Origin: an uncultured Veillonellaceae bacterium
Lineage (GTDB): Bacteria > Bacillota > Negativicutes > Selenomonadales > Selenomonadaceae
Direction of reading: 5' to 3'
Assembly (NCBI GenBank): GCA_902801565.1
Contig: CADCIX010000011.1
Coordinates: 1 to 58,333, forward strand
Length of the DNA: 58,333 bases
A program made the position numbers and the translations under genes. Below the pieces are notes generated by a model that worked only from the letters and a program-made list of their open reading frames with translations, made no database searches and was not told where the DNA came from. Below, piece by piece: positions 42,345 to 46,883 of this stretch. Numbering within the stretch: the first letter of the stretch is position 1; every line of letters starts with the position of its first letter.

Positions 42345-43118
42345 GTGCGCATCGATGTGATTACTCTCTTTCCGGAGATGTTTGCGGGCCCCTTCGGCGA
42401 GAGCATCATCAAGCGCGCCGTGGAACATGGGATCCTGGATATCCACTTCACGAACTTTCGGGACTTTGCCTTCGACAAACACCGCCAGGTGGATGATTCT
42501 CCCTTTGGGGGCGGCAGCGGCATGGTCCTGAAGCCGGAGCCCCTCTTCCGGGCTGTGCGCCATGTGAAGGAAGAGACGGCAGAGTACACAAACCGGCGAA
42601 TCCTGCTCATGGATCCCAGCGGTGTGCCCTTCCATCAGGATAAGGCAAAGGAACTGGCGGCCTATGAGCAGCTCATCTTCATCTGCGGGCATTATGAAGG
42701 CTTTGATGCCAGGATCACGGAAAATCTGGCAGATGAGGCCATTTCCATCGGCGACTATGTGCTGACAGGCGGGGAGCTCCCTGCCATGGTCATCACCGAT
42801 GCCGTGGCCCGCATGCTTCCGGGAGTGCTTGGCTCCGAGGAATCCGCTCCCACGGATTCCTTTTATCATGGATTGCTGGAATTTCCCCAATACACACGGC
42901 CAAGGGAGTTTGAGGAGATGCAGGTTCCGGAAATCCTCTTTTCCGGCGACCATGGAAAGATCCGTGAATGGCGAAGACAGCAATCCCTGAGAATCACGCA
43001 AAAAAACCGCCCGGACCTCTTGGAACGGGCGGAGCTTACGAAAGAGGACCGGGCGTTTTTGGCGTCGATTATTTCTTGCGAATGTGCCGATAGACAAGAC
43101 AGAGATGGCACCCAATAA
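42345..43118 (+). CDS. trmD: tRNA (guanine-N1)-methyltransferase TrmD
   Basis: Methylates G37 of tRNAs reading CNN/GGN codons, preventing +1 frameshifts. The SPOUT knot fold is evident: RIDVITLFPEMF at the start, DDSPFGGGSGMVLKPEP, CGHYEGFDARI and SIGDYVLTGGELPAMV. GTG start at 42345 with GGAGGAGG. The length, 257 residues, is slightly above the family norm. The last 50 bases are antisense to a small membrane-protein gene on the other strand. Confidence 0.97.
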   Translation: MRIDVITLFPEMFAGPFGESIIKRAVEHGILDIHFTNFRDFAFDKHRQVDDSPFGGGSGMVLKPEPLFRAVRHVKEETAEYTNRRILLMDPSGVPFHQDKAKELAAYEQLIFICGHYEGFDARITENLADEAISIGDYVLTGGELPAMVITDAVARMLPGVLGSEESAPTDSFYHGLLEFPQYTRPREFEEMQVPEILFSGDHGKIREWRRQQSLRITQKNRPDLLERAELTKEDRAFLASIISCECADRQDRDGTQ

Positions 43119-43353
43119 AAAATGCCATGCCCAGGAGGAAGAGCATGGCGGCGACAGGAGTAGAAGTCCGCTGCCATGCTTCCTCCCCGAAGGTCAGGGT
43201 TCCCGCGGCATTGACGAGAAGGAGATAGAAAAACGCCTTTGCCAGGTAAAGCCGGCGGAGTTTTCCCAGCCGCTGGAGCCCAAGGGGGAAGAGGGTGAAA
43301 CCGAAGGTCTGTACCAGTGTATAGGAAAGTATGTGGGCAATGGTCAAAAGCAA
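43069..43353 (-). CDS. Small three-helix membrane protein of unknown function
   Basis: A 94-residue hydrophobic protein with three likely membrane segments (about 4-25, 38-55 and 67-87) and a basic tail YRHIRKK, which predicts a cytoplasmic C terminus. TTG start at 43353 with AAAGGAG upstream at slightly long spacing. It converges on trmD, sharing 50 bases antisense. It lies 20 bases after the stop of the nitrogenase-like operon on the same strand and could be its last gene. I do not recognise a family; coding potential is supported mainly by the clean membrane topology. Confidence 0.5.
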   Translation of the reverse strand: MLLTIAHILSYTLVQTFGFTLFPLGLQRLGKLRRLYLAKAFFYLLLVNAAGTLTFGEEAWQRTSTPVAAMLFLLGMAFFIGCHLCLVYRHIRKK

Positions 43354-43373
43354 CTGTATAAAAACTCCTTTCC

Positions 43374-44546
43374 CTATTCGTCGATTTTAAGATCATGGAA
43401 GGATTCCATGAGATTCGGGATGTATTTTCGGTAGAGACGGCCGGAAAATCCCTCATGGGGAAGTTCGATGAACTTCACGTTTGATGGACAGATGGGCCTG
43501 TAGAGCGGATCGGCAATGAGGACAGAGGCGTCAGAGAAAAGAGGCTCCAGTTCTGTCTCGTCAGTGGCGCGCATATCGCCGGGACGAAGAAGGGCCTCCT
43601 CGGTCTCTACGGGGCAGATGACCTGTACAGGGCGCCGGTACTCTTCCTCCAGGGCTGCGGCCAGGGAGCAGGAAAAGACGCTTTCGCCGATGAGGAGAAC
43701 CCTGTTTTCCAAGGAAGAATCATGAGGTGTCGTCGTGGACGGCAGATAGGCACAGATGGAAGAAGGTTCCTGGCAGGAAGGCTCCAGCCGTTGCAGGAGC
43801 CTTTTTTTCATGCCTCCAAAGGGGATGCCGACGACATAGGGGATGCCCCATTCCTTTTCCATAACGCGGGCTGCGCCGAGGCCGCCATAACTGACCACGA
43901 GATTGACATCCGCCTGATGGGAATCCTGCAGTTCCTCCAGTGTGCTTCCCATGGCCCAACGACTGATGACGGAGAAGCCATTTTCTTCCAGCCAGCCGCA
44001 AATGCTTTTATCGCAGCCATTGACGGAGAAATCCAAAGGGGTGAGCCCCAGGACATTGATTCTTTTGTGCTTGCCGGTGGCGGCAGCAGACCTCGGATAG
44101 TCTTTGATAATGAGTTTTGCCATTGCCTCCAATGCCAGATAGACGCCCAGTGCATAGTAATGCATGCTGTTGGTGGGGAGGCAGAAGGTGCGGATGCCCG
44201 TGTTCTTTTCCACCATGCGGGCTGCAGCCTGAAGGTCGCAGCCGATCAGGGCGGGAATCTGGCTGGCCACGATGCAGATGAAGGCGGGCTTTTGGAGCAG
44301 GGCCGTTTCCGTGATATCCTTGATGAGTCGCTGGTCATTGCCGAGAATGGCATCCATCTCGGTCAGCCCGGAAATGTAGATCTGGCTGTCCATGTCGAAC
44401 CATCGTGGCTCGTCGTGGGTGGTGTAAGTGGAATTGCAGCCGGAAGGGTCATGCATGACCACCATGCCCCCCAGTTCAAAAAGGGCAGAGCAGACGCCGA
44501 AGGTATCGGCAGAGTAAGTGGATATGAAGGTTGCAGTCTGTTTCAT
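43374..44546 (-). CDS. Nitrogenase component 1-like protein, subunit B
   Basis: A 390-residue protein of the NifD/NifK/BchN/BchB superfamily. Cys 19 and Cys 37 (in VMHDPSGCNSTYTTHDEPRW) match the first two P-cluster cysteine positions. At the third position, where NifK has Cys before the IGDDL motif, this protein has SQIPALIGCDL: Gln 96, with a nearby Cys 103. Later parts show the three-Rossmann-domain pattern (RINVLGLTPLDFSVNG, VNLVVSYGGLGAARVME). The start at 44546 overlaps the stop of subunit A by four bases, so the two are surely made together. Function unknown; the pair would be expected to hold a bridging Fe-S cluster. Confidence 0.75.
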   Translation of the reverse strand: MKQTATFISTYSADTFGVCSALFELGGMVVMHDPSGCNSTYTTHDEPRWFDMDSQIYISGLTEMDAILGNDQRLIKDITETALLQKPAFICIVASQIPALIGCDLQAAARMVEKNTGIRTFCLPTNSMHYYALGVYLALEAMAKLIIKDYPRSAAATGKHKRINVLGLTPLDFSVNGCDKSICGWLEENGFSVISRWAMGSTLEELQDSHQADVNLVVSYGGLGAARVMEKEWGIPYVVGIPFGGMKKRLLQRLEPSCQEPSSICAYLPSTTTPHDSSLENRVLLIGESVFSCSLAAALEEEYRRPVQVICPVETEEALLRPGDMRATDETELEPLFSDASVLIADPLYRPICPSNVKFIELPHEGFSGRLYRKYIPNLMESFHDLKIDE

Positions 44547-45865
44547 AAGCAGCAGGGGCCTCCCAGCCCTTTCTGTTGGATCAAGCTTCTCATATCTTTC
44601 GGCGTATGGAAGGCCTCGACCATGAGCCTTGTCAGACGGCAAAGCCCATGGAAGCCCCAGAGGCCGCCCCCCTCTATGAGATTCACGAAATATGGAGTGT
44701 CATTGAAGTAGGCGGCTTTCTGCCCCAGAGCCAGCAGTTTTTCCCGGGAAGCGCGGTTGAAGAGCCGCATATCCGCATTTTTTGTGGCGATGAGGTCGAT
44801 ATCGCCATGGTGCTCCTGCAGCCAGCGGAAATCTTCCTCATCTTCCCTCGAAACGACATCGGAAAAAACCTGCACGACCCGGAAGCCGTATTGGCAGAGA
44901 ACCCGTGCGAGATTGAAGGGGCGGAAGGTGAAGGAGAGGTCGATGGCAATGGGGGTTGCCCCAAGGATTTCCTGCGCTTCCCGAAGCGCATCGGAAGCAG
45001 CCTGCTGCTTCGCCTGGAAATCCGGCAGGGGAATGGACAGTGTCGTGGCAATCTGCCGGAGCTGACGCAAAATGCTTTCGCTGTCATAGCATTGAGGCAG
45101 GTAAAGGAATTCCTGCCCAAGGCGCTCCTTGAGGTCTTTTGCCGCAAGGTGGGTGAAGGGATTCCAGTAGAGATTGAGGCGCGATTTCGCCATGGCCTGG
45201 AATTCCTCATAGCTTTGGCAGCCTGTCAGGTCATGCAGGGAAAATCCGAAGGAGGCCAGAAGCTTCATGAGGTCGCAGTCCTTGTCGAGGGGAAGGTTGC
45301 TGCCGATGGTGTTGATGGATTTCTCATCCAGCGGCGCCTTTTTCAAGAGACGGTAGATTTCCCGGCGTTCCCTTTCTTCCGGGGTGATTCCCTGTGTCTG
45401 GCGGATGGGGTCCATGATGCATTCTGCGAATTCCACCTTCGGGAAACGCCGATGCAGGGTGTCATAGACATAGCGAAGATTGCAGCCGAGAAAATGATGC
45501 ACGCAGGCAGTGAAAACGAGGACGGCCCTTGGAAGTTTCGGCAGCCGGTGGAGGATGGTGGTGATTCCCTCAATAATGAAGGTTTCGTTGTCCGTGTTTA
45601 CCATGTCCTTTTCACGGAATTCCAAGGCAGAAAAACGGTGCATGGCCCCCATTTCCGCGGCGGTGAGGACAACGCCCCTCAGACAGCCGGCAGCGCAGAT
45701 GTAGATCTGGTGGCTTTCCGGCAGGAGCATTCCCGTATGCACGATATTCCATGTGCCGCGGGCAGGGGAAGAATATTCGAGGGTATGGGGAAAGGGAGCA
45801 GGACAGGAAGCGTCCCGAAGCTTTACGACGGCGCGGGAGGGCTGGCCATGGATTTTCTGGAGCAT
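44543..45865 (-). CDS. Nitrogenase component 1-like protein, subunit A
   Basis: A 440-residue protein of the same superfamily. Candidate cluster ligands are Cys 21, Cys 61 (IYICAAGCLRGVV, aligned with the HGPVGC of NifD) and Cys 121 (FTACVHHFLGCNL), plus extra Cys 57 and Cys 128. C-terminal Rossmann features include PIAIDLSFTFRPFNLARVL and a closing GLGGPCCL with vicinal cysteines. It lacks NifD's FeMo-cofactor region as far as I can see and is smaller, closer to the tetrapyrrole-reductase branches. The ATG at 45865 follows GGAAGGCGG, which straddles the hypE stop codon, 13 bases away. No NifH-like ATPase is encoded nearby. Confidence 0.75.
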   Translation of the reverse strand: MLQKIHGQPSRAVVKLRDASCPAPFPHTLEYSSPARGTWNIVHTGMLLPESHQIYICAAGCLRGVVLTAAEMGAMHRFSALEFREKDMVNTDNETFIIEGITTILHRLPKLPRAVLVFTACVHHFLGCNLRYVYDTLHRRFPKVEFAECIMDPIRQTQGITPEERERREIYRLLKKAPLDEKSINTIGSNLPLDKDCDLMKLLASFGFSLHDLTGCQSYEEFQAMAKSRLNLYWNPFTHLAAKDLKERLGQEFLYLPQCYDSESILRQLRQIATTLSIPLPDFQAKQQAASDALREAQEILGATPIAIDLSFTFRPFNLARVLCQYGFRVVQVFSDVVSREDEEDFRWLQEHHGDIDLIATKNADMRLFNRASREKLLALGQKAAYFNDTPYFVNLIEGGGLWGFHGLCRLTRLMVEAFHTPKDMRSLIQQKGLGGPCCL

Positions 45866-45878
45866 GACAACCGCCTTC

Positions 45879-46883
45879 CTAGCAGATTCTCGGCAGCAAT
45901 TCTCCCCCGGGAGGCGGGAGCAGAGTCTGGGTGCCGATTCCCGTCGTGAGGACGACCTTTCCGATGTGATCCTCTGTGACCTTTCCGATGACAGATGCCT
46001 GAGCGGCATATTGGTTCGCGTGAAGTGCAGCCAGGACAGCTTCTGTGCTCTCATGGGGCACAAACATGACAAGCCGCCCCTCGCAGGCCAGATAGAGAGG
46101 CTCCAGTCCGAGCATGCCACATACACCCTTGACCGCAGGGGCAACGGGAATGGAGTCCGCATCCAGTTCCACCCCGATCTTGCTCTGGGAGGCGATTTCG
46201 TGAAGGACCGTGCCCACACCTCCCCGCGTGGCATCGCGTATCACATGGATGTCCTTTGCGGCATCAAGGGCAGCCTCGACAGCGCCCCAGAGGGGTGCGC
46301 AGTCACTGGTGACATCTGCCGTGATATTGAAGTCGTTGCGGGCCAGGAGGATGGAGCAGCCGTGCCGTCCGATGTCCCCAGTGACGATGATATCATCACC
46401 GGGCTTTGCGTTGGAGCCATGGGGATGGACATCCGGCAGCGCTTCCCCGATGCCGGTGGTGGTGATGAAGATGTTGTCCACCTGCCCTTTGCCCGCAACC
46501 TTCGTATCCCCCACGACGATGCGGATACCAGCCTCAGCGGCGGTCTTTTCCATGGCAGCAACGATCTTCCGAAGGTTTTCCATGGGAAAACCTTCTTCAA
46601 TGACAAAGGCGCAGGAAAGGTATTTCGGCCTTGCCCCCATACAGGCGAGGTCATTGACCGTGCCGCAGATGCTGAGCTTGCCGATATTGCCGCCGGGGAA
46701 TTCCCAGGGGGAGACAATGAAGCCGTCGGTGGTGAAGGCGATTTTCCCGTCGTGGACGGAAAGAAGCGCGGCATCGTCTGCCGTGAGCTCCGGATTGTTG
46801 AAATGGCGTACAAAGATATCCTGTATGAGTTCGCTGGTCCGACGGCCTCCCGCACCATGGGCAAGGGTGATGTTTTCCTCCAT
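45879..46883 (-). CDS. hypE: HypE, carbamoyl dehydratase of hydrogenase maturation
   Basis: A 334-residue PurM/SelD-fold protein. It starts ITLAHGAGGRRTSELIQD, contains FTTDGFIVSPWEFPGG, CGTVNDLACMGARP, VGDTKVAGKG and RDATRGGVGTVLHEIA, and ends in the diagnostic PRIC. The terminal Cys is carbamoylated by HypF and dehydrated to thiocyanate, the source of the cyanide ligands of [NiFe] hydrogenase. No other hyp or hydrogenase gene is present in the window. Instead it heads an operon with two nitrogenase-like proteins. AAGGAGG before the ATG; a promoter lies upstream. Confidence 0.93.
   Translation of the reverse strand: MEENITLAHGAGGRRTSELIQDIFVRHFNNPELTADDAALLSVHDGKIAFTTDGFIVSPWEFPGGNIGKLSICGTVNDLACMGARPKYLSCAFVIEEGFPMENLRKIVAAMEKTAAEAGIRIVVGDTKVAGKGQVDNIFITTTGIGEALPDVHPHGSNAKPGDDIIVTGDIGRHGCSILLARNDFNITADVTSDCAPLWGAVEAALDAAKDIHVIRDATRGGVGTVLHEIASQSKIGVELDADSIPVAPAVKGVCGMLGLEPLYLACEGRLVMFVPHESTEAVLAALHANQYAAQASVIGKVTEDHIGKVVLTTGIGTQTLLPPPGGELLPRIC

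Follow-up and report, generated by a model that had tools for sequence, protein, structure and literature searches.

In the maturation of [FeFe]-hydrogenases, HydG cleaves tyrosine to obtain CO and CN and delivers these ligands in the form of an Fe(CO)2CN synthon, which is then processed by HydE and HydF. An iron-cyanide-CO unit is also built by HypF, HypE, HypC and HypD in the maturation of [NiFe]-hydrogenases, and the nitrogenase-like systems (NifEN/NifDK, DPOR BchNB, COR BchYZ, CfbCD and Mar) have in common a component-1 fold, a NifH partner and cluster-binding cysteines. Here we describe three adjacent genes, encoding a HypE and two nitrogenase-like proteins, A and B, in a stretch of 58,333 nucleotides (the window) from contig CADCIX010000011.1 of an uncultured Veillonellaceae bacterium of the family Selenomonadaceae (assembly GCA_902801565.1). 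Genome comparisons suggest that hypE-A-B is probably the part, within the window, of a pathway that builds the H-cluster of [FeFe]-hydrogenase independently of HydG.

In relatives these genes belong to two modules, X (nifH1-D1-K1-hypF-hypC-hypD-hypE) and Y (nifH2-A-B). Those present in the window are as follows.

45879-46883, minus strand: hypE of module X, 334 residues, carbamoyl-dehydratase type with C-terminal PRIC (TIGR02124).
44543-45865, minus strand: subunit A of module Y, NifD/NifE-like, 440 residues (PF00148, AlphaFold/Foldseek fold, conserved cysteines).
43374-44546, minus strand: subunit B of module Y, NifK/NifN-like, 390 residues (PF00148, nitrogenase fold, invariant C37).

All three are intact, with a gap of 13 bases between hypE and A and a 4-base overlap, ATGA, between A and B. 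HypE scores 423 bits against TIGR02124 (cut-off 251.6), and C334, the cysteine of its C-terminal PRxC motif, is kept in 49 of 53 relatives. The nitrogenase component 1 model PF00148 (cut-off 28.6) gives 57.2 bits for A and 99.6 bits for B. A preliminary description of the window, made from its letters alone, had given this same gene layout, a complete HypE and two proteins of the NifD/NifK superfamily, and was right in each. It had also found no HypF, HypCD or NifH gene nearby, which is true of the window but not of the genome (a 2.7 Mb assembly, 99.8% complete) or of relatives, where these genes are contiguous. Contig C1 carries nifH1-D1-K1-hypF, hence a second nitrogenase-like pair with a NifH, and contig C8 carries hypC-hypD; on contig C3 a [NiFe]-hydrogenase is encoded together with a separate hypD-hypE. 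The hypF on C1 is the only one in the genome, which by score also has a single NifH. HydE (362 bits), HydF (521 bits) and an [FeFe]-hydrogenase are present, and nothing in the genome passes the cut-off of the HydG model TIGR03955, so that the full HydEFG set is lacking.

A scan of a genome collection, many of whose members are metagenome-assembled genomes (MAGs), gave 493 encoded relatives of A, the best 80 of which were used for locus counts. Most Selenomonad loci examined (e.g. L043, L045, L049, L052 and L056) have the order nifH1-D1-K1-hypF-hypC-hypD-hypE-A-B. X and Y are likewise adjacent in Clostridium ljungdahlii, C. ragsdalei, C. carboxidivorans, C. luticellarii, C. thailandense and C. 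muellerianum, in Lachnospiraceae and in Megasphaera, and X is missing beside Y in a third group, made up mostly of Oscillospiraceae. Because hypE, A and B are neighbours again in dozens of genomes, chance adjacency is ruled out, and the coupling of hypE to nitrogenase-like pairs is not peculiar to the window genome. By NCBIfam and Pfam models, Y is recurrently accompanied by HydE, HydF and a TM1266-family 'iron-only hydrogenase system' regulator, and also by a FecCD permease, a FecE-type ATPase and a periplasmic-binding protein. At least one of HydE, HydF and TM1266 stands beside A in 50 of the 80 loci. A Megasphaera MAG (L134) and G558 (L207) have the single run TM1266-nifH1-D1-K1-hypFCDE-nifH2-A-B-HydF, and Oscillospiraceae and others have TM1266-FecCD-FecE-HydE-nifH2-A-B-SBP-HydF, SBP being the substrate-binding protein.

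Some loci vary in their organisation. D1 and K1 form one long open frame of about 790-880 residues, resembling a NifEN fusion, in several genomes (L046, L054 and L056). The Selenomonad G140 differs from the rest of its family in having nifH2-A-B on contig C13 (L053) and nifH1-D1-K1-hypFCDE on contig C14 (L054). In some Y-only operons the FecE-type ATPase has a second, C-terminally fused TM1266-like domain (L119, 7087-8157; L208, 12209-12457). Operons of nifH-D-K-like genes with FecBCD-type importers occur on the Treponema saccharophilum plasmid pTS1 (L309) and on a Sporomusa termitida plasmid (L310), with no Hyp or Hyd genes nearby; these are likely sister systems.

HydG was scored with TIGR03955. 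Among the 66 genomes with A-B, HydG passes the cut-off in four and is missing from 62, although 65 have an [FeFe]-hydrogenase (PF02906), the exception being a 1.2-Mb partial MAG. Five of six A-negative relatives have HydG, and the sixth has neither HydG nor a HydE-like match nor an [FeFe]-hydrogenase. Contrasts within two genera and two families all run in one direction, with A-positive members lacking HydG and A-negative members possessing it: G000 (the window genome) and G187 against G186 in genus g1; G145, G162 and G163 against G146, G151 and G160 in genus g22; G496 against G211, G327, G474 and G555 in family f25; and G240 against G279 and G506 in family f52. HydG occurs in 0 of 10 strong-A genomes and 212 of 388 others in a 398-genome sample (p=4e-4), and in 0 of 23 members with A and 5 of 5 others in the Selenomonad family (p=1e-5), both values being uncorrected for relatedness.

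These results bear on a survey by Di Leonardo et al. (2022), in which HydE and HydF were found without HydG in C. ljungdahlii, C. carboxidivorans, C. ragsdalei, C. coskatii and AWRP, most of these acetogens, including C. ljungdahlii and C. ragsdalei, had HypCDEF without HypAB, and C. carboxidivorans had duplicate HypC/D/E; its authors saw no straightforward explanation for the absence of HydG (PMC9431212). We find X-Y in C. ljungdahlii, C. ragsdalei and C. carboxidivorans, and its presence would explain the missing HydG, the HypCDEF without HypAB and the duplicate HypC/D/E alike.

The Hyp proteins of module X stand apart from those of [NiFe]-hydrogenase maturation. No [NiFe]-hydrogenase is present in 16 of 21 X+Y genomes, Selenomonads being excluded from this count, and the Hyp genes of those 16 must therefore serve something else. 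Trees of HypD and HypE place the X-type copies in one clade (100/100), separate from hydrogenase-operon copies that include the window genome's own, and the HypE of the window groups with the X-type proteins rather than with the other HypE that its genome encodes, in the hydrogenase operon. The window genome and all but one of the cluster-bearing Selenomonad genomes do have a [NiFe]-hydrogenase match, with a second hypC/D/E set inside the hydrogenase operon. X shares with the classical system intact HypF, HypC, HypD and HypE, in which the catalytic cysteines, Cys2 in HypC, are kept; it differs in the separate HypD/HypE clade, in the absence of [NiFe]-hydrogenase from most X+Y Clostridia and in forming one operon with nitrogenase-like genes.

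Structural models of A and B (AlphaFold pLDDT 86.4 and 70, respectively) match NifEN, V- and Fe-nitrogenase and DPOR in Foldseek with TM values of about 0.6, and a Mar structure stands at rank 38 in the list for A; a PDB sequence search with A alone gave no useful match. Both proteins score far under every equivalog cut-off tested (NifD, NifK, NifE, NifN, VnfD, BchN, BchB and CfbD), the best values being 77.5 for B against nifE (cut-off 505.1) and 24.1 for A against BchN (cut-off 324). D1 and K1 reach 55 and 36 against a cut-off of 505. Similarity to Mar is limited to a profile match to 9fmg at E 2e-4, and no close similarity to MarDK was found by profile or Foldseek comparison. In a superfamily tree, made by a quick method and with some weak forks, A, B, D1 and K1 form four separate groups away from NifDKEN. 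Judged by sequence, and as had been supposed, A-B falls into none of the characterised nitrogenase-like families tested, although the presence of two paralogous pairs, D1-K1 and A-B, is a feature shared with NifDK/NifEN.

The conserved cysteines are C57, C61, C121 and C149 in 95 aligned A proteins, and C37 is the only invariant one in 90 aligned B proteins. C61 and C121 of A align with C88 and C154 of NifD (alpha 88 and alpha 154) and C37 of B with C95 of NifK (beta 95), which gives three P-cluster-type cysteines per heterodimer, two in A and one in B, where NifDK has three in each subunit. The preliminary description had credited A with all three positions (21, 61 and 121) and B with two, with Gln at the third, and here it must be corrected. 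Cys21 of A is not conserved in orthologues and falls elsewhere than the first P-cluster cysteine, whose position is occupied by Ser, Pro or Ala; C19 of B is present in 78 of 90 relatives but is off-register; and the Gln of the window copy of B is mostly Pro in relatives. The low equivalog scores and the small number of P-cluster-type cysteines set the pair apart from NifEN/NifDK, DPOR, COR, CfbCD and Mar, and N2 fixation was rejected as a function because P-cluster ligands are missing. The same cysteine pattern is found in the uncharacterised 'red clade' nitrogenase-like pairs of Dos Santos et al. (2012), who noted that NifHEN-like genes occur twice, in close linkage, in Coprococcus catus and Dorea longicatena and gave neither a function nor a Hyp or Hyd link (PMC3464626); their identity with A-B is judged from cysteine pattern and gene arrangement, not from a common tree.

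Compared with HydEFG maturation, these genomes retain HydE, HydF, [FeFe]-hydrogenase and a regulator of the TM1266 family, with part of these genes linked to the cluster, and differ in having nitrogenase-like pairs with HypFCDE or an importer in the place of HydG. The simplest account of the data is that X+Y, or importer+Y, does the job of HydG. On genomic evidence the link of X and Y to H-cluster maturation is strong; the chemical steps and their order we infer as follows. Module X would make an Fe-CN(-CO) unit, with HypF and HypE producing cyanide from carbamoyl phosphate, HypC-HypD holding the iron, and NifH1-D1-K1 providing ATP-driven low-potential electrons, plausibly for the formation of CO from CO2. 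Alternatively, the nitrogenase-like reductase may bring the iron to a lower oxidation state, such as HydE produces in the HydG pathway. Module Y, a NifEN-like pair with its NifH2, would accept and reduce the unit and hand it to HydE/HydF. By analogy with NifEN, its nearest match in sequence and structure, Y may act as a scaffold. It is also possible that HypE gives CN to the nitrogenase-like complex, as the preliminary description proposed. Of the two options offered there, a new metalloenzyme or a maturation system, the second is the better, but the likely target, the H-cluster, was not named; the second nitrogenase-like pair, the HypF/C/D/E set, NifH, the HydE/HydF/TM1266 context and the absence of HydG cannot be seen in the window, and it was missed for that reason.

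Where X is missing, a FecBCD-type importer beside Y may bring an equivalent precursor. A FecCD permease or binding protein stands beside Y in 34 of the 36 loci that lack X parts and in none of the 44 that have them (p=1.4e-20), X absence being scored beside Y and checked genome-wide in one complete Y-only genome. That genome, G589 (1.70 Mb), has no hypC/D/E/F and no D1/K1; HydE, HydF and TM1266 lie beside its Y module, and it has four [FeFe]-hydrogenase matches. The substrate-binding protein of the importer scores 42 bits against IsdE (cut-off 299), and no cargo is assigned. Since X and importer exclude each other and Y is constant, Y is placed downstream of both, and X would make what the importer brings.

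The alternative that fares best is that Y is itself the maker of the CO/CN ligands (or the relay of free CO/CN), starting from a precursor that is imported or already in the cell, X being an optional supply of cyanide or iron and HypCD handing on no assembled Fe-CN-CO unit. This would still be a replacement of HydG, with the labour divided otherwise. Y is the sole part common to all loci, and G589 has HydE, HydF and its hydrogenases with neither Hyp genes nor HydG; yet the retention of the HypC Cys2 and of the catalytic cysteines of HypD and HypE points to full Fe-CN assembly on HypCD, and the mutual exclusion of X and importer to one shared upstream product. We regard this division of labour as possible but not likely.

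A more distant alternative is that X and Y make another cofactor or reduce another substrate, the absence of HydG being a by-product of shared ancestry or lifestyle. The substrates of nitrogenase-like proteins are diverse, the Treponema and Sporomusa plasmids carry related pairs with FecBCD away from Hyd genes, and genomes with HydG do contain relatives of A (E 1e-60 to 1e-90). What makes this reading improbable is that the genes are linked directly to HydE, HydF and TM1266 and that exchange with HydG recurs at genus and family level. Still less credible is a HydG too divergent for the model, with X/Y acting beside it: candidates such as a 450-residue radical SAM protein have been put forward, with doubts raised by the proposers themselves (PMC9431212), but in these genomes the HydG model picks up even HydE and ThiH, and its sole match in C. 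ljungdahlii and in C. ragsdalei, at 67-68 bits, is consistent with HydE. That these are ordinary [NiFe]-hydrogenase maturation genes lying by chance beside nitrogenase-like genes can practically be dismissed, for although HypE is a true HypE by its model, nearly all cluster-bearing Selenomonads have a [NiFe]-hydrogenase and that of C. ljungdahlii has both CxxC motifs, it is contradicted by the X+Y genomes without such an enzyme, by the second hypC/D/E set of the Selenomonads and by the separate HypD/E clade.

Several points weigh against a HydG-independent route through X and Y. HydG is present in four genomes with A, namely two Intestinibacter bartlettii, L137 and C. thailandense, and G127 has A-B with no HydE-like match, the model specific to HydE not having been used across all genomes. 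The single HypF of the Selenomonads also serves their [NiFe]-hydrogenase. The normal product of HypCD is Fe(CN)2CO; to arrive at Fe(CO)2CN, the number of ligands of each kind must change at some point. Finally, a Y-only organism that lacks both HydG and Hyp must get its CN/CO from some source, for which import is only a guess.

Next to hypE-A-B lie trmD-rimM-rpsP-ffh (window positions 42345-43374). In G001, which has no A-B, hypF occupies the equivalent spot, which suggests that hypE-A-B marks the ancestral site of the cluster and stayed behind when the other genes moved away. An open reading frame for a 94-residue membrane-protein-like product with a TTG start (43069-43353, minus strand) begins 20 bases after B and may be an additional member of the operon. 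Contig C37 of the window genome (L198) has a pyrrolysine-type cluster of PylB-, PylC-, PylD- and PylS-like, corrinoid-protein and MtbA-like reading frames, named by eye only.

In the literature within reach, which takes in few subscription papers and preprints, we found nothing joining nitrogenase-like proteins with Hyp/Hyd maturation, and searches on HydG-independent maturation gave no paper on this system. A paper on the mlp gene cluster (PMC10418091), which names nitrogenase-like and maturation genes, was rejected as a prior description; it concerns the Mar-type group IV-A and methyl-sulfur/selenium. The families of the parts are all known, but their combination and task are undescribed in the literature found, and we do not class the system as a HydEFG variant; if any route of H-cluster maturation were counted as one kind, it would be a new variant.

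[FeFe]-hydrogenases are encoded without HydG by industrial acetogens and by many gut bacteria, and X/Y is a concrete candidate for the source of their H-cluster CO/CN. If this is true, there would be a second biological way to the Fe-CO-CN chemistry of the H-cluster, the HypCDEF machinery would have a use beyond [NiFe]-hydrogenase, and a function would be gained for a large branch of the nitrogenase superfamily that is uncharacterised so far. Organometallic cross-feeding in the gut is a more speculative extension, to be held tentatively. The pathway would matter, too, for engineering the hydrogenases of acetogens and for how H2 is metabolised in rumen and gut.

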